From positions 3,299,889 to 3,363,888 of the forward strand of contig NZ_AZUQ01000001.1 of NCBI RefSeq assembly GCF_000527155.1: 64,000 nt of DNA. Direction: 5' to 3'. This document shows positions 37,579-51,857 of the stretch, one piece after another. Source of the DNA: Haloglycomyces albus DSM 45210. Its GTDB lineage: Bacteria > Actinomycetota > Actinomycetes > Mycobacteriales > Micromonosporaceae. The notes under the pieces were generated by a model. It ran no database searches. It had not been told where the DNA came from and saw nothing but the letters and a program-made list of their open reading frames with translations. How positions within the stretch are numbered: position 1 is the stretch's first letter; every line of letters begins with the position of its first letter. A program made the translations under genes and the position numbers.

Positions 37579-38316
37579 TTAGTACCAACCGGTGGCCTCC
37601 GAATGGGACCAGGCACCGCATGGAGTTCCGTAGCGTTCGGAAATGTAGTCCAAGCCCCAGGTAATCTGAGTGGCCGGGTTCGTTTGCCAATCGTCGCCGG
37701 CGGAGGCCATCTTGCTTCCCGGTAGCGCTTGTGGGATCCCGTATGCTCCGGAGCTGGGGTTGGTGGCCGATTCATTCCATTGCGACTCACGGTTCCAGAG
37801 GTTGACGAGGCATTCGACTTCGCCCATGCCCCAACCGCGTTCCAAGGTCAGGGTGCAGCCCATCGCCCGATTGCCGGAGTATGAGGAGCAGTCGCCCGAG
37901 ATGGGAACAGATCCGTTGTCCGGTTCCGGCTCCGGCTCAGGTTCAGGCTCGGGTTTCGGCTCCGGTTCGGGTTCCGGATCCGGCTCTTCCTCTTCTTCCT
38001 CAGGCTCTGGCTCGGGTTCCGGCTCCGGTTCGATGATGGAGTCCATCTCATCGACCTCTTCCCAGCTATAGCTGGCGGCCATACCTTCAGCCACGATGTC
38101 CTGGGCCATCTTCTCCTCGTGGGAACGATCGTCGATGTCCCGAATCGCACCGGCCGTACCAACGGCACTGACGGTGGCGACGATCGTGGCCAAAGCGGTG
38201 GCGACGACACGATGCCGCAGTACGCCACCGACGGTGCCGAGAAATCCCCGGTGACTGTGTTTAGCATTGCCCGTCTGGTCTTCGGACGGGGAGGAACTAC
38301 CCTTCGTCGTTTGCAT
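37579..38316 (-). CDS. Secreted/anchored lysozyme-like transglycosylase with Pro-Glu repeat linker
   Basis: About 245 aa: a Gln/Ser-rich head, one hydrophobic signal-anchor (VVATALATIVATVSAVGTAGAI), a linker of about 40 residues made almost only of Pro-Glu repeats, then a C-terminal domain. That domain (CLVNLWNRESQWNESATN, SSGAYGIPQALPGSKM, TQITWGLDYISERYG) matches actinobacterial SLT/aggregation-promoting-factor type enzymes, with the catalytic Glu in NRESQWN. It should cut or remodel peptidoglycan outside the membrane. The start is uncertain: in-frame ATG at 38364 and GTG at 38376 precede it and none has a clear ribosome site. Confidence 0.82.
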   Translation of the reverse strand: MQTTKGSSSPSEDQTGNAKHSHRGFLGTVGGVLRHRVVATALATIVATVSAVGTAGAIRDIDDRSHEEKMAQDIVAEGMAASYSWEEVDEMDSIIEPEPEPEPEPEEEEEEPDPEPEPEPKPEPEPEPEPEPDNGSVPISGDCSSYSGNRAMGCTLTLERGWGMGEVECLVNLWNRESQWNESATNPSSGAYGIPQALPGSKMASAGDDWQTNPATQITWGLDYISERYGTPCGAWSHSEATGWY

Positions 38317-38376
38317 TCGGGCAAGAATAATCAGAAAAATTCGCCCTACAACCTGCACAAACATCTCAGGAATCAC

Positions 38377-39166: not shown

Positions 39167-39321
39167 CGTGTGTTTGCCTCACGCACCATCGAACGAACGG
39201 CGGACGAGGCTGTATTCAATATGCGGAATTGCGGACCGTAGCCCCGCCGGATATCATCCGTGACACCACGCCCGCGAATCCGATGCGGCGGACACCGCAC
39301 ATCAACCAAGGACCGCATGTC

Positions 39322-39924
39322 ATGACCGACCACGGGCCCGCTCCCGAAAACGTCGCCGTACTTGTCTGTATCGGCGGCCGCTCACGACGCATGAACGGCG
39401 TTTCGAAGCCCGACCTCCGTATCGGCACCGAAACGATTCTGGAGCGTCTCGTCCACGCGACTTCGGGAGCCGCCCAACATCTCGCCGTGGGCCATCGCGA
39501 TACCGCGCTGCCACCCCTACCGGAGACGGTCTCGCACTTCGTAGAACGCCCACCGTACAGCGGACCCGCCTTCGCGCTCGCTCAAGCGGCGATGACGGTG
39601 CCCCGGCACCAACCCTGGATCGCCTTGTTGGCAGGCGATCTGCCCTATTTCGACTCAGCGGCCTTTACGGCGTTGCGGTGCGCCGCACGACCTGATCGAG
39701 TCACCGCGTTTACGGATGAAACCGGAAGACCCCAATGGTTGACGGCACTCTGGCCGCGTTCCCTCTTGGTCGACCAAGCGGAAACGGTCGAACCCAACGG
39801 TCCCATGCGCTCCCTCTACCAGGAGGTCGAAATTCAGTCGCTCACCTGGAACGAATCACCCCGCCCCTGGCAGGACTGCGACACCTTCGCCGAACTTCAC
39901 CGGGCCAGACGAATTCTCGCTTGA
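39322..39924 (+). CDS. Molybdenum cofactor guanylyltransferase-like (MobA family)
   Basis: The 200-aa protein has VAVLVCIGGRSRRMNGVSKPDL, the nucleotidyltransferase loop (usually LAGGxSxRMGxxK; here the first Ala is replaced by Ile and Lys is kept) and LLAGDLPYF, the metal-binding Asp region. It would attach GMP to molybdopterin. The neighbour at 40072 is a molybdopterin oxidoreductase and fdhD follows, which supports the assignment. AAGGA lies about 10 nt before the ATG at 39322. Confidence 0.8.
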   Translation: MTDHGPAPENVAVLVCIGGRSRRMNGVSKPDLRIGTETILERLVHATSGAAQHLAVGHRDTALPPLPETVSHFVERPPYSGPAFALAQAAMTVPRHQPWIALLAGDLPYFDSAAFTALRCAARPDRVTAFTDETGRPQWLTALWPRSLLVDQAETVEPNGPMRSLYQEVEIQSLTWNESPRPWQDCDTFAELHRARRILA

Positions 39925-40071
39925 GGCCGTTTCACAGACGGACCGGCGGCCGTCACCTCCCACCAAGATTCGTACCGGAATACCGCATGCTCACCCGTAC
40001 CGAACGGCCGGGTGTATTAGGCTGGCACGTGGGTCCAACCGCCGAAATGCCGAGTGGACAGGAGCGCGGAC

Positions 40072-42357
40072 ATGACAAAAGGTTCCCGAGCCAAACGTCT
40101 GAAGATCTCATCGCCGGAAGACGACGCCGTAGGGATTCCAGCGGTCGTCAACAGTATCTGGTCGGCCCAAAAACAGATGGGTCCGCGTCGGTGGTTCCCC
40201 ATCCTCAAAGCGCTGAACAAAGACGGCGGAATCGACTGCCCCAGCTGTGCCTGGCCCGACCCCGAGCGGCGACGGCCGGCGGAATTCTGCGAAAACGGCG
40301 CCAAAGCCATCGCGGAGGAGGCGACCGCGCGCGGCATCGGTGCCGATTTCTTTGCTCGACATTCGGTAGAGGAACTGTCCCAGCGAAGTGGCTACTGGCT
40401 GGGACAGCAAGGCCGCCTCACCGAACCGCTCTACCTCGACGCCGACGCCACCCATTACCGCCCCATCTCCTGGGAGGAGGCGTACGCGCTCGTCGCCGAC
40501 GAACTCGACAACCTCGACAGTCCCGATCAAGCGGTCTTCTATACCTCCGGACGCACCGGAAACGAAGCGGCCTTCCTCTACCAGCTCTTCGCTCGTAAAC
40601 TCGGCACCAACAACCTCCCCGACTGTTCGAACATGTGCCACGAGTCGACGTCATCGGCGTTGTCGGAAACCATCGGCATCGGCAAGGGCTCCGTGCTGTT
40701 CGACGACTTCCACCACACCGACCTCATCGTGGTCGTCGGCCAGAACCCCGGTACGAACCACCCGCGAATGCTGACGACTCTCGAAGAGGCCAAACGTCAG
40801 GGCGCCCGGATCGTATCGATCAATCCGCTGCCCGAGACAGGATTGGAAAGGTACCACGATCCACAGTCGATTCGAGGTCTGGTCGGTCCCGGAACCCAAC
40901 TGTCCGACCTCCACCTACCGATTCGAGTCGGTGGAGATCTGGCGCTCTTCAGCGCTCTCAACCGATCTCTCATTGAGGCCGAAGCAGTCGACGGTGATTT
41001 CATCGAGACGTACACCGACGGATACCACGACTACTCCGAGGCGTTGCTGTCCACTCCCGCAGAGGAATTCTGGGAGAAGATCGACGACTACACCGGCCTG
41101 GCACGATACGAGATCGATCAACTACTGTCTCTCATCCAGCGTTCCCGTTCGGTCATCGTATGTTGGGCCATGGGCCTCACCCAGCACGAACACTCCGTCC
41201 CCACCCTGCGGGAAGTGGTCAACCATCTACTGCTGCGCGGCAATATCGGCAAGCCCGGATCCGGACTGTGTCCCGTACGCGGGCACTCCAACGTGCAAGG
41301 GGACCGAACCATGGGCATTTGGGAGCGCCCACCACGTGCGTTCCTGGACGCGCTCGCCCGCGAGTTCGATTTCGAACCTCCGCGGGAGGACGGTCTGGAT
41401 ACCGTCAACGCGATTCGGGCCATGCGTGCGGGAGAGGTCCGTTTCTTCATGGCCATGGGCGGCAACTTCGTCTCCGCCGGCCCCGACACCGAAGTGACCG
41501 AAGCGGCCATGCGCAACTGTGAGTTGAGCGTCCAGGTATCGACGAAGCTGAACCGTTCGCACGTGGTGACCGGGCGTCGGGCACTGATCCTTCCCGCTCT
41601 GGGTCGTACCGACCGCGATCACCAAGCCGGTGGGGAGCAATTCGTTACCGTGGAGGATTCCTTCAGCAAGGTGCACACGTCGCAAGGCAAGGTGGCGCCG
41701 ATCGGTCGGACGATGAAAAGCGAACCCGCCATCGTCTGCGACCTGGCCGAGGCGGTGTTCGGTGCGGACGACTCCATAGAATGGAGTGATTTGAAAGCCG
41801 ACTACGACCGCATTCGCGACCACATATCCCGGATCGTCCCCGGGTTTGAGGATTTCAACCGCAGAGTACGTGAACCCAATGGTTTCACCCTTCCCCACCC
41901 GCCGCGTGACAGTCGTACGTTCCCCACCGACACCGGCCGGGCCAACCTCACGTCCAATCGCCTGCGAGCACCCTCGGTCAAACCGGACGAGTTGATCCTG
42001 CAGACCTTGCGCTCGCACGATCAGTTCAATACCACGATTTACGGCTTGAACGACCGATACCGGGGTGTACATCATGGACGTCAGGTGGTGTTCGTCAATC
42101 CCGTCGACGCCACAAGGCGGAGTCTTGAGGACGGAGCCACGGTGGATTTGATATCGATTGATGCCGATGGAAAGGAACGAAGAGCGTCACGTTTTCGCCT
42201 GGTTCATTACCCTACGGCGAAGGGGTGCGCGGCGGCGTATTACCCGGAGACCAACGTCCTGGTGTCGCTGGATTCGGTGGCCGAGCAGTCCAATACGCCC
42301 GCGTCGAAATCAGTTCCGATTCGTCTGGAACGCAGTTCCGTCGTGGCGCGGAGCTAG
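40072..42357 (+). CDS. Molybdopterin oxidoreductase, FdhF/YdeP family
   Basis: The 761-aa protein has the YdeP-type N-terminus with Cys (GGIDCPSCAWPDPERRRPAEF), the molybdopterin domain (FYTSGRTGNEAAFLYQLFAR, CSNMCHESTSSALSETIG, VVVGQNPGTNHPRML, GLCPVRGHSNVQGDRTMGI) and a C-terminal MopB-CT domain. Relatives are called formate dehydrogenase alpha-like; YdeP contributes to acid resistance in E. coli. Its true substrate is unknown. It lies 2 bp before fdhD and after a mobA-like gene, so cofactor supply and enzyme are grouped. Confidence 0.9.
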   Translation: MTKGSRAKRLKISSPEDDAVGIPAVVNSIWSAQKQMGPRRWFPILKALNKDGGIDCPSCAWPDPERRRPAEFCENGAKAIAEEATARGIGADFFARHSVEELSQRSGYWLGQQGRLTEPLYLDADATHYRPISWEEAYALVADELDNLDSPDQAVFYTSGRTGNEAAFLYQLFARKLGTNNLPDCSNMCHESTSSALSETIGIGKGSVLFDDFHHTDLIVVVGQNPGTNHPRMLTTLEEAKRQGARIVSINPLPETGLERYHDPQSIRGLVGPGTQLSDLHLPIRVGGDLALFSALNRSLIEAEAVDGDFIETYTDGYHDYSEALLSTPAEEFWEKIDDYTGLARYEIDQLLSLIQRSRSVIVCWAMGLTQHEHSVPTLREVVNHLLLRGNIGKPGSGLCPVRGHSNVQGDRTMGIWERPPRAFLDALAREFDFEPPREDGLDTVNAIRAMRAGEVRFFMAMGGNFVSAGPDTEVTEAAMRNCELSVQVSTKLNRSHVVTGRRALILPALGRTDRDHQAGGEQFVTVEDSFSKVHTSQGKVAPIGRTMKSEPAIVCDLAEAVFGADDSIEWSDLKADYDRIRDHISRIVPGFEDFNRRVREPNGFTLPHPPRDSRTFPTDTGRANLTSNRLRAPSVKPDELILQTLRSHDQFNTTIYGLNDRYRGVHHGRQVVFVNPVDATRRSLEDGATVDLISIDADGKERRASRFRLVHYPTAKGCAAAYYPETNVLVSLDSVAEQSNTPASKSVPIRLERSSVVARS

Positions 42358-42359
42358 GT

Positions 42360-43175
42360 ATGGGCCGTCGTGTCACCCGCCGCCGGATTACCGCCGTACG
42401 CGATGATCGTCCCCGCTCAACTCTGGATTCGGTGATCGTGGAGGAGCCGTTGGAAATTCGTATCTCCCAGGCGTCCTATACGACCACGATGCGCACCCCG
42501 GGAGACGATTTCGACTTCACCTGTGGGCATCTGTACACCGAAGGGGTCATCGTGCGGGCCGACGACCTCGTCTCCGTCGGATACTGCCGTCGCAACGGGG
42601 CGGACGTTTACAACATTGTGGACGTCCGGTTGGCCGATCACATCACGGCGCCGTGTGCCCGGGACCATCCGGTCACCAGTGCCTGCGGCGTGTGTGGATC
42701 GACGTCGATTGCCGACATCATGGATCGGATACCTCGACAAAACGTAGGCACTGAGCGTATCTCTCGGCGGCAACTCGTCGACATGCATCGGAGGATGCGC
42801 CCCGCGCAAAAGCTGTTCGATCGAACCGGCGGCAATCACGCCGCCGCACTCTTCGACGACGCCGGAGAACCGGCGGTCGTTCGGGAGGACATCGGGCGTC
42901 ATAACGCCGTCGACAAGGTCATCGGTTGGGCGTGGCGGGAAGGTCGCCTTCCGCTGCGCGGTGACAGTCTGGCCGTCACCAGTCGGGCCTCGTTCGACAT
43001 CGTCCAGAAGGCCGCCATGGCCGGGATCGGTCTCCTGTCGGTCGTCTCTGCTCCCTCGTCGCTCGCGGTGGATCTCGCGGCGCAGGCGGGGATGACCTTG
43101 GTGGCGTTCAATCGTGGTGACCGTTTCAATGTCTACACTCACCCGGAACGCATCGACGGGCTACTGGATCCATAG
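42360..43175 (+). CDS. fdhD: Formate dehydrogenase accessory sulfurtransferase FdhD
   Basis: The 271-aa protein has RVDDRPRSTLDSVIVEEPLEIRI-type start, DFTCGHLYTEGVI, the essential Cys pair SACGVCGSTS, EDIGRHNAVDKVIGWA and SRASFDIVQKAAMAGI. FdhD moves sulfur to the molybdenum cofactor for formate dehydrogenase-like enzymes. The ATG at 42360, two bp after the oxidoreductase stop, has GGAG 8 nt upstream. The frame extends further up inside the neighbouring gene, but that part is not FdhD-like. Confidence 0.95.
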   Translation: MGRRVTRRRITAVRDDRPRSTLDSVIVEEPLEIRISQASYTTTMRTPGDDFDFTCGHLYTEGVIVRADDLVSVGYCRRNGADVYNIVDVRLADHITAPCARDHPVTSACGVCGSTSIADIMDRIPRQNVGTERISRRQLVDMHRRMRPAQKLFDRTGGNHAAALFDDAGEPAVVREDIGRHNAVDKVIGWAWREGRLPLRGDSLAVTSRASFDIVQKAAMAGIGLLSVVSAPSSLAVDLAAQAGMTLVAFNRGDRFNVYTHPERIDGLLDP

Positions 43176-43195: not shown

Positions 43196-43921
43196 TCAAC
43201 GCGAGCGCCAATAGCCGAGGGCGTGTACTCGGTTTTTGGGGAGTCCCAGTTCCTTGCGGGCGAATGATGCCAGCGTACGGGTGACGGCGGCTTCACAGGC
43301 GATCCAGACGTAGGCTCGTTCCGGTTCCATGATCGCGTCGGGAAGCACGGCTCTAACCTCGTCGGTGAGTGCCTGCCCTTGGTTTTTTCGTGGAACCCAG
43401 TGAATCTCATGGTGGTCGGCGACGGTTGCGAGGGGTATGTCGGTATCGGATTCGTGGCCGGTTTCCAACCAGACGGTTGCGGGCAATTCGGAGTGGTGGC
43501 GAAGCAGCGAGTTGATCGCCGGGATCGAGGCGGGGTCACCGATAAGGTAGAGGTGCTCAGGTGCCGGATCGGGGCCGGTAAAGCCGGTTCCCTGCACCGT
43601 TGCCTCGATGGTGTCACCGGGCTGTGCGGTTCGGGCCCAATTGGCGGCGCAGCCGTCGTGCAGTGCGAAATCGAGGCTGAAGGTTCCCTTCTGAGGGTTC
43701 GGGTTCACGACGGTGTAGGCGCGTTGATGTGGTTTCCCGCCGTTGTCGAACCACAGACGTATCCACATTGTCGGGTGCGGATCGATCTGCTGGAGCAGGC
43801 CGCCGTCATCGCAGTGTACGCGACGATAATGGTCGGTTATTTGTTCGGCATCGGTAACGGTCACGGTGAAGTCCTTGCTCCCCATGAGTTTCAGTACGAA
43901 CCCCTCGACTCCACGTCCCAC
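43196..43921 (-). CDS. Siderophore-interacting protein (FAD-dependent ferric reductase, DesF-like)
   Basis: The 241-aa protein has the SIP flavin motif RAYTVVNPNP and the C-terminal NAD(P)H domain (HLYLIGDPASIPAINSLL, AYVWIACEAAVTRTLASFAR, HALGYWR). It releases iron from ferric siderophores by reduction in the cytoplasm. In Streptomyces a SIP gene (desF) accompanies the desferrioxamine genes. AAGGA precedes the GTG start. It is divergent from the desGH-like gene and shares the iron box between them. Confidence 0.9.
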   Translation of the reverse strand: MGRGVEGFVLKLMGSKDFTVTVTDAEQITDHYRRVHCDDGGLLQQIDPHPTMWIRLWFDNGGKPHQRAYTVVNPNPQKGTFSLDFALHDGCAANWARTAQPGDTIEATVQGTGFTGPDPAPEHLYLIGDPASIPAINSLLRHHSELPATVWLETGHESDTDIPLATVADHHEIHWVPRKNQGQALTDEVRAVLPDAIMEPERAYVWIACEAAVTRTLASFARKELGLPKNRVHALGYWRSR

Positions 43922-43983: not shown

Positions 43984-44002
43984 TTAGGTTAGACTATCCT
44001 TA
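43984..44002. promoter_or_regulatory. Iron box (IdeR/DmdR-type operator)
   Basis: The 19-mer matches the actinobacterial consensus TTAGGTTAGSCTAACCTAA except for two A-to-T changes in the right arm and A at the degenerate centre. It lies 20 bp before the desGH-like start and about 63 bp before the SIP start. Repression of both with iron is expected. Confidence 0.85.
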
Positions 44003-44021
44003 TCTAATGGAAAGGACGGGG

Positions 44022-46625
44022 ATGGCGTTCACTCTGTATCGGGACGACTGGGGAGTTCCTCACCTCTGGAGCGACGATCCGATCGAGCTGTCCCTTGCTC
44101 AAGGTTGGGAGGCCGCAGCCGACAGAGGAATACAGATCGAGTCGGAACGACGACGCGCAGAAGGACGTTCCGCCGCGGTTCGGGGACGAACCGACCTCGA
44201 TTGGGATCGCTTCGCCCGACAGGCTCGCATCGACGATACCGGTTACCGCGCCTACCAATGCCTTGACCGGGATACCGCTACCTGGGTACACGCCTATACC
44301 GAAGGTATCAATCTCTACCTCGCCACTCACGACACCGGTGTCGCAGCCTGGAATCCCTGGACCCCATTGTCCATTTGGCTGTCTCACCACATCCTTTTCG
44401 GTTCGGGATTTCCCGCAAAGCTCTGGCGCGACCGAGTGGCCACCGTCCTCGGCGAGGAGGCCGTTGACCTCTTCGCCACCGACGGCCCGAATTCCGCCGG
44501 AAGCAATGGATGGTTGATCCCGGGGCACCGAACCGCCCATGGTCACCCCATTCTCGCCGGGGATCCCCACCGCATCATCGAACGCCCCGGTCTCTATCAA
44601 CAAATTCGCTTGGCCTGTCCCGACTTCGACGTGCTCGGCTTCGCCGTACCGGGAGTCCCGGGAATTCCCCACTTCGGGCATACCGGAACAGCGGCCTGGG
44701 GAATCACCAATGCCATGGCCGACAGTCAGGACCTCTTCTGGGAACAACTGCGATTTCACCACGATGGTCACGTGACCGCACTCGGCCCAGACGGGGACGA
44801 ACCCGTGCACGTGCATCAGGAGACGATCAAGGTCTCTGACGGCACGAGCGAGACGGTCACGGTCATGGAAACGGAACGCGGGCCCGTTATCGCCGGCAAT
44901 AACGACACTGGATGGTTGAGCCTGCGATGTCCCAGTCGGTCGGAAAAAGATCTAGGTTTCGCCGCTCTACCGGAACTTTTGCGGGCCAATACCATTGCTG
45001 ATATCGACAACGCCGTCGACCACTGGGTCTTGCCGGTCAACGTCGTCATGGCCGCCGACGCCCGTGGCGGACACCTGCATCGCGTCGCCGGTCGCGTCCC
45101 GTCTCGCGATCGCGCCGACGCGATCCGACCCCGTTCGGCCCGGAATCGCCGTTACCGGTGGCCGGACGGAATGGCCAAGCTGCCGCGTCACAACATTACC
45201 GACATGGCCGTCATGGCAAACGACAGTGATCTGGTGGGGCACTTGGGGATCGAATTCGCCCCACCGCACCGAGCGAACCGCATTCGGACGTTGCTCAACA
45301 CGGCGGAGAAATGGACGTCAGACGATATGGAACGGGTATTCACCGACACGCTGTTGCCGTCCGCCGAGCCCCTCGTACGCGCGGTTTCGCGCCAGAACTC
45401 GTTGACCCCCGCCGCGTCTCGCCTACAACACCGCTTGTCCCAGTGGGATCGGCGTATGGAGGCCGGAAGCATGGAGGCGACCTGGTTTGCCCGGCTGCGC
45501 TCGCAGGTGGTCGCCGCCATCGCCGATGTGCCGAATTTTTCGGCCCTGGCGGACGATCCGAACACGTCGGGGGTATTTCAAGCGTGGCTGAGTCTACGTC
45601 CACGCATCGCCTTCACGCTCGAATATCTCCTTTCGCGGGACAACCTTCTCCTAGCCCACGACCAGGTGGAGGCGATCGTCGCTGACGCTTTGGAACGGAC
45701 CGCTGCTGAAAACGAAACGGTTCCTCCGTGGGGATCAGTGCATACCGTATCGGTCTGGCAGAGCGAGATGGGTCGAGAGGACCGCCTCGAGATCGGCGGC
45801 GATCACGACTGTGTGCTCTCCACGACCAGCGTTCCGGGAGTGACCGATGGCTGCGTGCGTGGACCTGCCGCTCGGTGGGTTTGGGACCTGTCGTCGCGAG
45901 ACCGCAGTCGCTGGATCGTCCCGTTCGGGGCGTCCGGCGTCGTGGGCAACCCGCATGAAAGCGACCAACTTCCCCTATGGCAACAGGGATGTCTTATTCG
46001 TGTCGTCACCGATTGGCAAGAGCTACACAAGGAGTTCACTATGACCGAAACTCAGACCCTGACAATGCGACGAGCCACGTTCACCCACCGAATTCCAGAT
46101 TTCGGAACAGTGCGACTCGTTGAAGTGAACCCGGACGCCGATATCGATCTCATCCATCGATGGGTTCATGAGCCGCGTGCCCGCTTCTGGGGCATGAACG
46201 ACCTCGATAAGGAACAAGTCCGAGACATCTATCGGTACTTGGATTCCCTGTCGACCCATCATGTTTACCTCGTCGTGCGGGGTGATTCGCCGGTGGCCCT
46301 ATTTCAGACCTACCAGCCGGACGCCGATCCCGTCGGCGAGTGTTACGACGTGCAGCCCGGCGACATCGGCGCGCATCTCCTCGTTTCCCCGATAAGCGAC
46401 GGCACTCTCGTTGCCGACTTCACCGCACAGCTCATGCGCGTCTTTGCGAAGTTCCTCTTTGCCGATCCCACGCGCCAGCGTGTCGTGGTGGAACCGGACG
46501 CTCGAAACGACAAGGCCCTTAAACGTCTCCGCAGAGCCGGTTTCGCCCTTGGCCCAGAGGTCGACCTGCCGGACAAACGCGCACGTCTGGCCTTTTTGGA
46601 TCGTCGTACCGCCGAATCGCTGTAA
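44022..46625 (+). CDS. Penicillin-acylase-family Ntn hydrolase fused in frame to a siderophore-type GNAT acyltransferase (DesG-DesH-like)
   Basis: The 867-aa open frame has two parts. Residues 1-670 form a penicillin-acylase-type Ntn hydrolase: FTLYRDDWGVPHLWSDD, the nucleophile Ser161 in AGSNGWLIPGHRTAHGHPI, and FGHTGTAAWGITNAMAD. Residues 674-867 form an AlcB/IucB-like GNAT (RFWGMNDLDKEQV, IGAHLLVSP, RVVVEPDARNDKALKRLRRAGF). No signal peptide is present, unlike secreted acylases. At 46041 an in-frame ATG follows a perfect AAGGAG with 6-nt spacing, so the GNAT may also be made alone. Streptomyces desferrioxamine loci can carry separate desG (amidase) and desH (acetyltransferase). AAAGGA supports the ATG at 44022. 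Confidence 0.88.
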   Translation: MAFTLYRDDWGVPHLWSDDPIELSLAQGWEAAADRGIQIESERRRAEGRSAAVRGRTDLDWDRFARQARIDDTGYRAYQCLDRDTATWVHAYTEGINLYLATHDTGVAAWNPWTPLSIWLSHHILFGSGFPAKLWRDRVATVLGEEAVDLFATDGPNSAGSNGWLIPGHRTAHGHPILAGDPHRIIERPGLYQQIRLACPDFDVLGFAVPGVPGIPHFGHTGTAAWGITNAMADSQDLFWEQLRFHHDGHVTALGPDGDEPVHVHQETIKVSDGTSETVTVMETERGPVIAGNNDTGWLSLRCPSRSEKDLGFAALPELLRANTIADIDNAVDHWVLPVNVVMAADARGGHLHRVAGRVPSRDRADAIRPRSARNRRYRWPDGMAKLPRHNITDMAVMANDSDLVGHLGIEFAPPHRANRIRTLLNTAEKWTSDDMERVFTDTLLPSAEPLVRAVSRQNSLTPAASRLQHRLSQWDRRMEAGSMEATWFARLRSQVVAAIADVPNFSALADDPNTSGVFQAWLSLRPRIAFTLEYLLSRDNLLLAHDQVEAIVADALERTAAENETVPPWGSVHTVSVWQSEMGREDRLEIGGDHDCVLSTTSVPGVTDGCVRGPAARWVWDLSSRDRSRWIVPFGASGVVGNPHESDQLPLWQQGCLIRVVTDWQELHKEFTMTETQTLTMRRATFTHRIPDFGTVRLVEVNPDADIDLIHRWVHEPRARFWGMNDLDKEQVRDIYRYLDSLSTHHVYLVVRGDSPVALFQTYQPDADPVGECYDVQPGDIGAHLLVSPISDGTLVADFTAQLMRVFAKFLFADPTRQRVVVEPDARNDKALKRLRRAGFALGPEVDLPDKRARLAFLDRRTAESL

Positions 46626-46675: not shown

Positions 46676-48445
46676 TCACTCGGAATGTTCGGCTGCCAAG
46701 GGATTGTCGAGATCCCCCGCATAGACCAAACTGTCGGATTGATTCTCCAAGTCAACCAGAGACGTGTTGTCCCGCAACTGCAAGCGGTTCAGACATGACA
46801 GCCGGAAAGTGTCTGCTCGCAGGTCCCATCGCGCGAACCTGTTGTTCAATTCCGGATGCCGCCGCTGATAGCGCTCCAGTACATCCGCGACGACCTCCCA
46901 GAAGGCACTCCACGGCAGGATCCCGTCGTCGTCCATGATGCCCGCGAGGAATCGTAGGAAACAGTCCACTACGTCGGTCAGGATGGACAGCGGAAACTCC
47001 GCATCGGATACCTGCTCGGTGACCCGTTCCAAATCCTCGGGAACGGTGGTGATCCCGTTCAGGAACGTAATCTCCTCCCCGATGTCCTTGAGAAACACCC
47101 GTCGTACCCGGCCGTTCCGCAACACCAGGATCACGTTCTCTCCATGCGGCATGAAAGCCAAGCCGTATTTGTACAGACAGTGCACCAACGGGGTCAGATA
47201 GGCCTCCGTATATTCGCGCAACCACTGCCGTGCGGAGATACCGGAACGTCTCACCAACTCCGACACCAGTGGACGACCCTGTTCGTCGAGATGGAGCAGA
47301 CTCGCCATTGTGGCGGGCTGCTCATCGTCGTCAAGGTACGGAATGGGGCTTTCCCGCCACAGCGCCGCCAAGAACTTCCGATAGGGGGAGCCCTTCGGCG
47401 CGCAAGCGGTGTAAATCGGGTGCCAGTACCCTCCAGCGGAGTGTTCCCGCAGCACGCGCACCCCGGATTCCTGCAGCGTCGGATCGGTGTGGACGATGTC
47501 GGCGACGAATCGATTGATCCGCGGCGTCAGCTCCATGTAATCGGTCGACAGGCCCCGCATGAACCCCATGTTGAGCACCGACATGGCGGTCTTGACATAC
47601 GGTTGACTTGGATCGGTCCGGTTGAAGAACGTCCGAATCGACTGCTGCGCCTGATAAGAACAACTCCCTTGACCGAGATGCACAATGCGACCGGTGGCGA
47701 TCTCGGCGGCGAAGGCGATGGCGATCTTATTGCGCCACTGCCACGGGTGAACGGGAATCAGATGGACGTCGTCGACGGTCAAGTGCAGGCCGTCCAAACG
47801 TTCGCAGATCCAGTCCCAGTCCGGGCCGGTCACCTCCTTCGCCATTGTGGTCGTATCGCCCTCCGTACTCACGAAGAGCGACTCGTCACGGCGCAAAGCC
47901 ACCCACTCCAGACGCACCGAGGCGGCCGTCTCCGGCGCATAGGCGGCGTAATCGTCGATACTCATTCCCAGGCGCCCCGATCCGGCGACGAAACAGGGAT
48001 GGCCGGCAGTCATTGCCGCCTCAATCGTCTGGAAATCCCCTTCGGCCAGTTCGGAGGCACTCGGTTGGCCGTGTGCGCGTTGCCAGACGGCCCGATTGAG
48101 GGTGGACGCCAGTTCTTCGAGGTACACCGGTAGGACGACATCGTTCAGGCCGAGCGCCTCTCGCAGATCCACAATGAATTCGGCCGCACTCAATTCGCAT
48201 TCGTCGCCGTCCTCCCGATCGCGGCATTCAAGACTCGCTCCGTCGACGATCCAGTGGTCGAGAGGGAGCCTACGCGCCTGGAACGTCCATCGGTACCGGC
48301 GGCCGACGACCACATAGGTGTCGCCGGAGAGCTCGGGGTGCAGCAGGCGTTCATGGGAAAACTCGCCGATCGCTTTGGCCAGCAAACGACGTGTTTCGGC
48401 CTCCCAATACTCGGGCCGCAGATGATCGATCGTGGTGCGTTCCAT
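46676..48445 (-). CDS. desD: NIS siderophore synthetase, IucA/IucC family (DesD-like)
   Basis: The 589-aa protein has the family landmarks GHPCFVAGSGRLGMSIDDYAAYAPE, LIPVHPWQWRNKIAIAF, SIRTFFNRTDPSQPYVKTAMSVLNMGFMRG (shown in parts) and PHGENVILVLRNGRVRRVFLKD. It joins acyl-hydroxycadaverine units by ATP-dependent amide formation to give a desferrioxamine-type macrocycle or chain. It is the last gene of the desABCD operon, starting 3 bp after desC. The product class is inferred from the complete set of neighbours. Confidence 0.93.
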   Translation of the reverse strand: MERTTIDHLRPEYWEAETRRLLAKAIGEFSHERLLHPELSGDTYVVVGRRYRWTFQARRLPLDHWIVDGASLECRDREDGDECELSAAEFIVDLREALGLNDVVLPVYLEELASTLNRAVWQRAHGQPSASELAEGDFQTIEAAMTAGHPCFVAGSGRLGMSIDDYAAYAPETAASVRLEWVALRRDESLFVSTEGDTTTMAKEVTGPDWDWICERLDGLHLTVDDVHLIPVHPWQWRNKIAIAFAAEIATGRIVHLGQGSCSYQAQQSIRTFFNRTDPSQPYVKTAMSVLNMGFMRGLSTDYMELTPRINRFVADIVHTDPTLQESGVRVLREHSAGGYWHPIYTACAPKGSPYRKFLAALWRESPIPYLDDDEQPATMASLLHLDEQGRPLVSELVRRSGISARQWLREYTEAYLTPLVHCLYKYGLAFMPHGENVILVLRNGRVRRVFLKDIGEEITFLNGITTVPEDLERVTEQVSDAEFPLSILTDVVDCFLRFLAGIMDDDGILPWSAFWEVVADVLERYQRRHPELNNRFARWDLRADTFRLSCLNRLQLRDNTSLVDLENQSDSLVYAGDLDNPLAAEHSE

Positions 48446-48447
48446 CG

Positions 48448-49023
48448 TTATCCCCGTTCCTTCGCTTCGGAGGCTTGAAAGTTGGCCTTGGTGCAGAAAC
48501 TCAACAGAGCCACCTTGTCGTTCAATCGCAGCTCGGTGTCCGGCTTGAATCCGACCCAGGAGTTCAGGCGGTGAATGGCGGTGTTGTCCACATCGGGCTC
48601 CACCACGACTCGTCGTGCGCCCTGAGCGTCGAAGAGGTACTCCATGGTGACGCGCATTACCGCGCGGGTGAATCCCTGCAGGCGTTGCCGGGTCGGGGCG
48701 GTGAGGACGTGCATTCCAATGTCGCCCTCCCTATGCTCGTATCGCCCCGACAGTTCGCTTTGGCTCGGCTCGTACACTTCGATGAAGAAGCGTGGTGCTC
48801 CCCGGTGCAGGCCCATCAGCGCCTCTGCGTAAGGATCCGAGCGCATGGACTCGTATTCATGACGGACGCTTTCCGCCGTAGCGTTCTGGGCCATCCAATA
48901 TTTGCTCTTGGGATCTCGTAGCCAACTACTCAACAGCTCGGCGTCCGCCACCGGGTCGATCGGCCGCAGGGCCATCTCCCCAAGCTGCGGATCAACGCTT
49001 TCGTAAACGCTCGTATTCGTCAC
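48448..49023 (-). CDS. desC: Hydroxycadaverine acyltransferase, GNAT (DesC-like)
   Basis: About 191 aa of the AlcB/IucB-like GNAT fold: SWLRDPKSKYWMAQNAT, FFIEVYEPSQSEL, EGDIGMHVLTAPTRQRLQGFTRAVMR and RRVVVEPDVDNTAIHRLNSWVGF. It would acylate N-hydroxycadaverine with succinyl-, acetyl- or other CoA. The GTG at 49023 overlaps nothing and lies 5 bp after the desB stop, with GGGGAG 8 nt upstream; the longer frame inside desB lacks family similarity. It resembles the GNAT part of the desGH-like protein. Confidence 0.92.
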   Translation of the reverse strand: MTNTSVYESVDPQLGEMALRPIDPVADAELLSSWLRDPKSKYWMAQNATAESVRHEYESMRSDPYAEALMGLHRGAPRFFIEVYEPSQSELSGRYEHREGDIGMHVLTAPTRQRLQGFTRAVMRVTMEYLFDAQGARRVVVEPDVDNTAIHRLNSWVGFKPDTELRLNDKVALLSFCTKANFQASEAKERG

Positions 49024-49027
49024 AGTG

Positions 49028-50302
49028 TCACTCCCCGACTCCGAATTCTTGAAAGGCAATGCGTTCTTCCACCGGATAGACTTCCTTTCCGGTGAGAGTA
49101 CGAATGAGATGAGAATTGCGATAGGCACCCATACCCAAATCAGGCGTGACGAAACCGTGGGTCGCCAACTCCCCGTTCTGCACGAAGATCGTCCCCGCAT
49201 CGTCGACCGCGTAATCTCTTCGTGCGTTCCACCGACCCTGTCCGTCCAAACGCAGTCGGTCTCGTACCGGTTCGAGGAAGCCGGGAATCTCGTTGCGGTA
49301 TCCGGTGGCCATCACGACCTTGTCCGTGGTGAGTGAGAACGGTTCATCCTGCTCCACCTGCCGCAGTCGAAGACGAATTCGATCGCCTTCGGTCGCCAAC
49401 TCCTCCAGCTCGGTATTCGTCCACAATCGCGTCGGTGCCCCGCCGTGATCGTGTTTCAATTGATACAAGCGGTCATAGATCGCATTGATCAGATCGGCGT
49501 CAATCCCCTTATAGAGGTTGCGTTGGTCGCGATTGAGGCGATCGCGCTCGCTCCCGGGAAGGTCGTAGAAGTAATCGACGTACTCCGGGCTGGTGAACTC
49601 CAGGGTCAATTTGGTGTATTCCATGGGGAAGAAACGGGGCGACCGCGTCACCCAGTTGACCTCATAACCTCCGTCGATCGCGCCGTCGAGGAGGTCCGCA
49701 TAGATCTCCGCGGCGCTCTGCCCCGATCCCACGACCGTGATCGAATCGGATTGCTTCAGCTCCGCGCTTCGGTTCACGTATTCGCTTGAGTGCACACACC
49801 GCTCGGGCTCTCCGCGCAGCGCGGAGGGGATATACGGCCTGGGGCCGGTGCCCACGATCAGTTTCGGTGCTCGGTAGGTCTCCGTCCCTTCCGGCGTTGC
49901 GGCGGTGACAAGGTAGTGTCCCGTACCCTCATCCCATACCACGGAGTCGACTTCGCGGCGGAACCGCACGTTGTCGAGTCGCTCGGCTACCCACCGCAGG
50001 TAGCTTTGATATTCGCTGCGCAGGGGGAAAAAGGACTCCCGAATGTAGAACGGGTACAGGCGGCCAACGTTCTTCAAATAGTTGAGGAACGAGTACGGGC
50101 TCGTGGGGTCGGCCATGGTCACCAGGTCGGCCATGAACGGAACCTGCATGGTGGTGCCGGGAATCAACATCCCGGGATGCCAGTCCACAGTAGACTTACG
50201 CTCCAGGAATATCCCATCCAAACCGTCGACGGGCCGGCTCAAGCAGGCAAGACCGAGATTGAACGGTCCGATGCCCACGGCAATGAAATCGTAATCGTGC
50301 AT
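49028..50302 (-). CDS. desB: Cadaverine/lysine N-monooxygenase (DesB-like)
   Basis: The 424-aa flavoprotein has FAD-binding YDFIAVGIGPFNLGLACL, the FLERKSTVDWHPGMLIPG segment, NADPH-binding ITVVGSGQSAAEIYADLL and the C-terminal ATGYRNEIPGFL and GMGAYRNSHLIRTLTG. It hydroxylates the primary amine of cadaverine. Its start overlaps the desA stop by one base (TAATG), so the genes are translationally coupled. Confidence 0.94.
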   Translation of the reverse strand: MHDYDFIAVGIGPFNLGLACLSRPVDGLDGIFLERKSTVDWHPGMLIPGTTMQVPFMADLVTMADPTSPYSFLNYLKNVGRLYPFYIRESFFPLRSEYQSYLRWVAERLDNVRFRREVDSVVWDEGTGHYLVTAATPEGTETYRAPKLIVGTGPRPYIPSALRGEPERCVHSSEYVNRSAELKQSDSITVVGSGQSAAEIYADLLDGAIDGGYEVNWVTRSPRFFPMEYTKLTLEFTSPEYVDYFYDLPGSERDRLNRDQRNLYKGIDADLINAIYDRLYQLKHDHGGAPTRLWTNTELEELATEGDRIRLRLRQVEQDEPFSLTTDKVVMATGYRNEIPGFLEPVRDRLRLDGQGRWNARRDYAVDDAGTIFVQNGELATHGFVTPDLGMGAYRNSHLIRTLTGKEVYPVEERIAFQEFGVGE

Positions 50303-51774
50303 TATCGCGGTCCTTGATAGACGTTGGTGACGAGCCGATCGAGGACGCCCATGACATCGTCGACCCGAGTCAATGGATTCAAGAGGGTGAGCTTGAGAAC
50401 CTGTTTACCCTGATATGTTGTGGCGGCTACCGCTCCGCTTCCATCGGCGGCGAGCTCGCGTCGAACCCGGCGTTGTGTTTCGTCGTCTCCCGGAACACGG
50501 AAAACGAGGGTGGACAGTTCGGAAGCGGGAGTGACCGTCTCCAACGTGGGGTGCGCTTCCACTCGTGTCCAGACCTCATCGGCCAGGTCGCAGACGTCGT
50601 CGAACAAACGCCCGATGGCGTCGGCTCCCATGGTCCGCAGGGTCAACCAGAGTTTGAGAGCGTCGAAGCGACGAGTCGTCTGCAGGGATTTATCCACCAG
50701 ATTCGGTTCGGCACTGGATTCGGGGTTCAAGTAGTCGGCATAGTAGGTCACATGCCCTAGTTGGCGCCCCTCCTTCACCAGCAGCGCCGAGGAACTCACC
50801 GGTTGGAAGAACGATTTGTGGAAGTCCACGGTCACCGAATCGGCCCGCTCGATGCCGCCGATACTGTGACGTCGTTGGGGAGACACCAACAAGCCGCATC
50901 CGTAAGCGGCGTCGACATGGAAATGACCCGCGTAGGCTTCGGCCAATTCGGCTACCTCGTACAGGGGATCGATGGAGCCGAAATCAGTGGTTCCGGCCGT
51001 GGCGATGACGGCCATCGGTATTTTTCCCTCATCAGTGGCCTCTACCAGGCATTCCTTTAGGGCAGTGGGATCCATGCGTTGCCGCTCATCGCTGGAGACG
51101 GCGACGACCGCGTCAGCGCCGAGTCCGAGTATGCGGGCGGCCTTGACGAGGGAGAAGTGGCTCAATTCCGAGGTGAAAATCCGGAAATCTCCGATCCTTG
51201 CCATCCCCCACCGTCGTTGTGCCTCTTCCCGTGCGAGGAACAGAGCCTGGAGGTTTGACTGGGTTCCCCCGCTGGTGAAAACCCCGTCGGACCTACTGTC
51301 GTAGCCGATCCTGCCACAGGTCCAATCAATGACCCGCTGTTCTATGTGGGTCGCGCCGGCGCTCTGGTCCCAGGTGTCGACGGACGTATTGATCGCGGCA
51401 TTGAACGCCTCGGCGGCGACCGCGGGAATGACAACCGGGCAATTGAGGTGTGCCAGGTATTTCGGGTCGTGAAACCATACGGCGTCGTTGAGATAAACGT
51501 CGTGCAACTCTTCCAGTGCCGCAGCGACGTCGTCCAGAGGGCGATCGAGATCGATCGCCTCGTGAACCTGAGAGACCTGCTCGGGAGTGCGGCCGGTTCC
51601 CGGTTGTCGTACCTGCGTGAATCGACGGGCTATGTCATTGACGACGGTGTGCATCAGGGTGCGGTAGCTCGCCGCAGTCGAATTGGTGAGTATCTGATCC
51701 CGCGCCCTCCCGCCTGGATGGTCGGTCACCACCGAGTCCGCGCGCTCTGAACTGGCGAGCTTGGTCCATGCCAT
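50302..51774 (-). CDS. desA: PLP-dependent lysine decarboxylase (DesA-like)
   Basis: The 490-aa group II decarboxylase has GVFTSGGTQSNLQALFLAREEA, FTSELSHFSLVKAARILGLG, ATAGTTDFGSIDPL, HVDAAYGCGLLV and the PLP-Lys in SVTVDFHKSFFQPVSSSALL. It would make cadaverine, the first step of desferrioxamine synthesis. The ATG at 51774 follows AAAGGA; a start seven codons upstream has no ribosome site. Two iron boxes lie directly upstream. Confidence 0.93.
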   Translation of the reverse strand: MAWTKLASSERADSVVTDHPGGRARDQILTNSTAASYRTLMHTVVNDIARRFTQVRQPGTGRTPEQVSQVHEAIDLDRPLDDVAAALEELHDVYLNDAVWFHDPKYLAHLNCPVVIPAVAAEAFNAAINTSVDTWDQSAGATHIEQRVIDWTCGRIGYDSRSDGVFTSGGTQSNLQALFLAREEAQRRWGMARIGDFRIFTSELSHFSLVKAARILGLGADAVVAVSSDERQRMDPTALKECLVEATDEGKIPMAVIATAGTTDFGSIDPLYEVAELAEAYAGHFHVDAAYGCGLLVSPQRRHSIGGIERADSVTVDFHKSFFQPVSSSALLVKEGRQLGHVTYYADYLNPESSAEPNLVDKSLQTTRRFDALKLWLTLRTMGADAIGRLFDDVCDLADEVWTRVEAHPTLETVTPASELSTLVFRVPGDDETQRRVRRELAADGSGAVAATTYQGKQVLKLTLLNPLTRVDDVMGVLDRLVTNVYQGPR

Positions 51775-51807
51775 TGGGATTTTCCTTTCTGGCACAATAG
51801 AAGCAAA

Positions 51808-51826
51808 GTGCGTTAGGCTAACCTAA
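51808..51826. promoter_or_regulatory. Iron box, proximal to desA
   Basis: The 19-mer matches the IdeR/DmdR consensus at 16 of 19 positions; the right arm CTAACCTAA is perfect and the three mismatches are in the left arm. It lies 34 bp before the desA ATG, so a bound repressor would cover the promoter. Confidence 0.88.
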
Positions 51827-51838
51827 CTACCTACAGCA

Positions 51839-51857
51839 TTAGGTTAGGCTAACCTTA
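51839..51857. promoter_or_regulatory. Iron box, distal to desA
   Basis: TTAGGTTAGGCTAACCTTA differs from the 19-bp consensus only at position 18. Its centre is 31 bp, about three helical turns, from that of the proximal box, which suggests cooperative binding of two regulator dimers on one face of the DNA. Confidence 0.92.

Follow-up and report, generated by a model that had tools for sequence, protein, structure and literature searches.

The window, that is, the whole 64-kb stretch of DNA analysed here, contains on its forward strand a single open frame (44007-46625) of 872 codons (872 aa), uninterrupted by any stop codon, which encodes a penicillin-acylase-type hydrolase followed by a siderophore GNAT. 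This assignment had been proposed in a previous examination made from the letters only (hereafter, the sequence-only reading), and was confirmed by the frame itself and by matches to PF01804 and PF13523. Two ATG codons could serve as the start; that at 44022 appears to be the better one, because it is preceded at 5 nt by an AAAGGA sequence, whereas the ATG at 44007 is separated by 4 bases from the end of an iron-box match (44002). The features of the locus are as follows.

43196..43921, reverse strand: siderophore-interacting FAD protein (desJ/desF-like ferrisiderophore reductase; PF04954/PF08021), divergent
43984..44002, forward strand: predicted iron box (IdeR/DmdR1-type operator), with 3 mismatches to TTAGGTTAGSCTAACCTAA, ending 19 bases before ATG 44022
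44011..44016, forward strand: Shine-Dalgarno (SD) sequence AAAGGA, 5 nt before ATG 44022, from the sequence
44022..46625, forward strand: fused desGH coding sequence, 867 aa counted from ATG 44022 (frame already open from ATG 44007), from open-frame and Pfam evidence
44031..46028, forward strand: DesG domain, penicillin amidase PF01804, residues 9-674, E 3.5e-137, profile positions 3-674 of 675 (full length)
44502..44504, forward strand: Ser codon for the predicted N-terminal nucleophile, at the predicted autocleavage site between the alpha and beta chains, from alignment with residue 1 of the 35sz/4hsr beta chains; Ser in 94/94 homologues
46029..46034, forward strand: internal SD sequence AAGGAG, from the sequence, retained across the clade described below
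46041..46043, forward strand: internal in-frame ATG, 6-nt spacer from AAGGAG, corresponding by homology to the start of desH in split relatives
46131..46568, forward strand: DesH domain, siderophore GNAT PF13523, residues 709-854, E 2.2e-46, with GDIGAH and EPDARN motifs
46676..48445, reverse strand: desD, NIS synthetase, best solved match DesD 6p63, E 3e-177
48448..49200, reverse strand: desC, N-hydroxycadaverine acyltransferase, PF13523, with NcdE and DfoC matches; the ORF as called probably extends too far at its 5' end
49028..50302, reverse strand: desB, amine N-monooxygenase, matching 6xbb and 5o8p (desferrioxamine), E about 1e-147
50302..51795, reverse strand: desA, PLP decarboxylase, matching 5o5c (desferrioxamine decarboxylase), E 7e-136
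51808..51857, no strand assigned: two predicted iron boxes (51808-51826 and 51839-51857), upstream of desA

The genes desDCBA (46676-51795) lie on the opposite strand, with desD convergent with the fused gene, and their identification through solved homologues upholds the placing of a DesG-DesH fusion beside desABCD. With these genes adjoining and an iron box 19 bases upstream, the fused gene is, as judged from homology, the desGH of a complete desABCD locus in a desferrioxamine-type cluster. The 64-kb window contains three iron-box matches, as compared with 0.01 expected in shuffles, and these predicted boxes suggest that the desGH/des locus is probably derepressed under low iron. The longest frame of desC (48448-49200) overlaps desB by 173 nt (49028-49200); its true start is probably later, near the desB stop, because the domain match begins only at residue 77-82 of that frame. 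Elsewhere in the window, an FdhF/YdeP-family molybdopterin oxidoreductase gene (40054-42357, forward strand) overlaps an FdhD gene (42225-43175, forward strand), both preceded by a gene for a MobA-like NTP transferase (39229-39924). The protein encoded at 37579-38376 (reverse strand) contains, as judged by eye from its translation, a long Pro-Glu repeat (EPEPEP) followed by a C-terminal lysozyme/transglycosylase-like part.

The nucleophile of DesG, Ser161 when numbered from ATG 44022, as in the sequence-only reading, is Ser166 in the numbering of the long frame. In alignments it corresponds to the Ser at the mature N-terminus of the 35sz and 4hsr beta chains; both of these solved relatives are processed two-chain enzymes. 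Ser166, His188, Asn405 and Arg422 all aligned with 35sz/4hsr and were invariant in 94/94 homologues, as were the GDxGxH and PDxxN motifs of DesH. The product lacks a signal peptide, as previously stated, and has a computed mass of 97.0 kDa from 44022, with 22.2 kDa for the product from the internal ATG, figures that replace the 94 and 21 kDa given before. By analogy with the solved relatives, the acylase part would self-cleave before Ser166, producing an ~18-kDa alpha chain and an ~79-kDa beta chain with the GNAT attached C-terminally. Because of this expected maturation, the blot pattern should also differ from the 94/21 kDa pair: if autocleavage proceeds as in the relatives, a C-terminal tag would be found on proteins of ~79 kDa (beta plus GNAT) and ~22 kDa, with the 18-kDa alpha chain apart.

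The search covered overlapping sets of genomes from the family (201), the order (299) and the phylum (396), plus fetched stretches; desG and desH were adjacent at 96 loci, fused in 42 and split in 54. Fusions occurred in the window's own genus, represented by one genome, in all 19 loci examined from genus g12, in part of genus g4, and in genera g20, g24, g29, g34 and g44; further cases were part of g69 (family f16) and the loci L090 (f18, which we take as Streptomyces-like) and L095 (f22). Hence the previous statement that desG and desH are separate genes in Streptomyces does not stand as a general rule, with many fusions in our survey and others reported in S. atratus and Micrococcus (PMC12161575). 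Six loci of g4 (L036, L037, L041, L075, L076 and L081; genomes G165, G199 and G185) contained desG without an adjacent desH, and a DesH-like GNAT was found elsewhere in these genomes (e.g. G165:C1:686324-686863), suggesting that the two genes can be unlinked.

The window gene and the 19 genes of g12, the nearest genus, formed a single clade (SH-aLRT 99) whose members are all fused and keep the junction start, and the window protein showed 52-58% identity to those of g12. A genome-contig search with the window protein returned only two loci, both distant. The tree required at least nine changes between the fused and split states. Rooting with desH-less acylases left the fused L090 unplaced at the base of the sister group of the clade and, because of this, the tree does not settle whether the change in the window clade was a fusion or a fission.

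Each of the 54 split pairs overlaps: desG terminates within desH in another frame, the desH SD lies inside desG, and the overlap is 4 to about 19 nt, measured in four of the pairs from the SD-backed desH start. Aligned fused and split pairs differed by 1-2 nt, or by a repeat insertion, located just upstream of or inside the desH ribosome site. In g69, a single base upstream of the SD distinguishes the fused L109 from the split L112, and the fused L110 has a repeat insertion there; in g4, a net two-base difference was observed both for L020/L023 versus L063/L065 and for L046/L073 versus L070/L123. In the alignment, the spacer between SD and start was 6 nt in the window clade and 4 nt in split relatives; the SD of the clade is GAGGAG, with AAGGAG in the window. 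Fused and split genes are thus separated by frame-changing indels near the desH start and not by the loss of a stop codon, because the stop of desG in the split pairs lies, without exception, within desH and out of frame with it, leaving no separating stop to lose. L109 and L112 come from two species of f16 g69 with nearly identical junctions, and their one-base difference lies in a C-rich repeat-like stretch, where a slippage-type switch between strains could be sought.

An uninterrupted frame that retains what looks like the relic of a ribosome site is also what would be produced by a recent point mutation of the desG stop, the stop-codon loss proposed by the sequence-only reading, or by an error of assembly. 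Nevertheless, the search for a junction stop in homologues, which that reading had suggested, found none ahead of desH in the 54 split pairs with their overlaps of 4 to about 19 nt, all 19 of the nearest relatives are fused, and the window genome is on one contig. We consider this origin extremely improbable, and sequencing or assembly error, in particular, was rejected on account of the 19 fused relatives.

The AAGGAG described earlier at the junction, with 6-nt spacing to an in-frame ATG at 46041, proved to be exact (46029-46043). The start codon is kept in 20/20 clade genes (17 ATG and 3 GTG), always followed by A, and is preceded by a 5-base SD in 18 of them and by a 4-base SD in the other two. 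We computed the chance rate on these same 20 genes: an in-frame ATG/GTG with a 5-base SD appeared 11 times in the 16,416 codons of the domain bodies, as compared with 18 of the 20 linkers, of 36-43 codons each, for which about 0.5 occurrences would be expected in all. Conservation beyond chance at the domain boundary thus supports the earlier impression of a genuine start, although the weight of the 20/20 count is reduced by the shared ancestry of the genes. The mRNA around the junction (about 60 nt) was less folded than the rest of its own gene in 20/20 clade genes (mean z +2.07), and the same held for 20/20 when synonymous recodings served as the reference (mean z +1.35). From these features, internal initiation at 46041 is likely.

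Junctions outside the clade were diverse. The g69 fusions L109/L110 contain an AGGAG-N5-GTG identical to that of their split sisters and have strongly unfolded junctions (z 2.6-3.0 versus the gene and 3.8-4.1 versus recoding), with the g4 and g44 fusions showing intermediate start and folding features. Among the fused loci surveyed, seven g34 fusions, L053 and L095 had no junction SD and showed near-ordinary folding, indicating that free DesH is not a general requirement. In the fusions L090 and L095, no in-frame start had an SD at a distance of 3-11 nt, although the junction of L090 was unfolded.

Glu-Glu precedes the internal start, and about 65% of recodings with the protein fixed still contained a 5-base SD; the SD alone is therefore weak evidence, and we rejected its conservation, taken alone, as proof of an internal start. 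This probability of retention (about 0.65) would agree with a plain fusion enzyme, in which only the long protein is made and the SD-like GAGGAG and the Met are leftovers from a split gene, held by the protein sequence of the linker and by descent. Published fusions are indeed read simply as fusions that channel N-hydroxycadaverine (PMC12161575), and start-less fusions occur that look functional, with their catalytic residues kept. Yet in the SD-less g34 fusions the Glu-Glu is gone, implying that the enzyme does not need it, and the start is an ATG or GTG in 20/20 clade genes despite the low identity of the window protein to its relatives. Likewise, in 20/20 clade genes the lack of structure at the junction exceeds what the amino-acid sequence requires, and this is not so in the start-less g34 fusions. 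We regard the production of the long protein only as rather unlikely.

In S. coelicolor, loss of desG lowers desferrioxamine (DFO) B about 1000-fold and loss of desH about 16-fold, with a rise in DFO E (Augustijn et al. 2025; PMC12161575). The model proposed there is that DesG takes succinate off N-hydroxy-N-succinylcadaverine (HSC) and that DesH acetylates the resulting N-hydroxycadaverine (HSC to HAC), in agreement with the cytoplasmic acyl-editing role suggested in the sequence-only reading. The original hypothesis for desG, quoted in the same article, was instead an aryl- or fatty-acyl-capped siderophore, for which DesG would free phenylacetate-type acids and DesH would use their CoA esters. 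The penicillin-amidase fold is in keeping with it, but arylated DFO is reported as absent in S. coelicolor, and it is the acetyl-capped DFO B that the knock-out loses (PMC12161575). Moreover, except for 35sz, whose substrate is not named, the nearest solved relatives of DesG are glutaryl/succinyl acylases, including a glutaryl acylase and D-succinylases, and not penicillin G acylases. These relatives fit a dicarboxylate leaving group, homology not being proof of substrate, and we consider aryl or fatty-acyl capping improbable.

In our preferred explanation, which we hold to be probable, desGH is an iron-regulated fusion made as a cytoplasmic, self-cleaving protein, together with some free DesH from the junction start. 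The mRNA from the iron-controlled promoter would be translated from 44022 into a single cytoplasmic DesG-DesH fusion. As in the S. coelicolor model, DesG would strip succinate from HSC, and the tethered DesH would acetylate the freed N-hydroxycadaverine at high local concentration, ahead of its re-succinylation by DesC, which would raise acetyl-capped DFO B relative to DFO E; both the use of cadaverine, instead of putrescine, and the product of the strain are assumed from the published model. The junction SD and ATG are predicted to let some ribosomes initiate at 46041, producing free DesH (~22 kDa), from which the cell may benefit. This SD and start would be shared with the overlapping, probably translationally coupled desG/desH pairs of relatives, and small frame-changing indels around the desH start would interconvert the two states.

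More tentatively, the overlapping coupled genes might constitute an evolutionary frame switch, with indels of 1-2 nt or short repeats repeatedly making the channelling fusion, and perhaps reverting it. Selection would keep the internal start, and with it a surplus of free DesH, such that the balance between fused and free enzyme may adjust the proportion of DFO B to DFO E. We view this extension as possible, although we lean against it.

Which of the two a strain produces, the drug desferrioxamine B or the cyclic DFO E, is determined by DesG and DesH, and a fusion with a kept internal start allows a direct test of channelling, enzyme ratio, or both. Because close relatives contain either overlapping coupled genes or one fused gene, the two states being set apart by an indel, and because lineages vary in having kept or lost the downstream start, the desG/desH family is a useful natural series for the study of gene fusion.

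The enzyme pair, the type of fusion and its likely purpose are already known (PMC12161575). What is new here is the overlap in another frame in all split pairs, the indel basis of the difference, the minimum of nine changes, and the internal start conserved in the clade. S. coelicolor desJGH (SCO4048-4050; PMC12161575) contains the same enzymes in the same order, with an adjoining SIP-family reductase gene, iron regulation and a role in desferrioxamine biosynthesis; here, however, desG and desH are in one frame with an in-frame internal start, lie beside desDCBA and convergent with desD, and the reductase gene is divergent. The desGH fusions published in 2025 for Streptomyces atratus and Micrococcus CH3/CH7 also join both genes in one frame; in the part of PMC12161575 on which we rely, we found no description of their junction. 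DfoC (5o7o), also from desferrioxamine biosynthesis, is likewise a siderophore GNAT fused to an enzyme of the same pathway, but combines a DesC-like GNAT with a DesD-like synthetase, instead of DesH with DesG. The desG stop and desH start are co-located in all split relatives, as in translationally coupled overlapping pairs (PMC3711429), whereas in many desG/desH lineages both genes are joined into one frame. Finally, Cas11 is produced from cas8/cas10d (PMC11899642) in a similar arrangement, with one frame, an internal AUG with an SD-like sequence and a second product corresponding to the C-terminal domain; the internal start of Cas11 was demonstrated by mutation and blot, whereas that of desGH is predicted, and for desG/desH the split state is still present in relatives.
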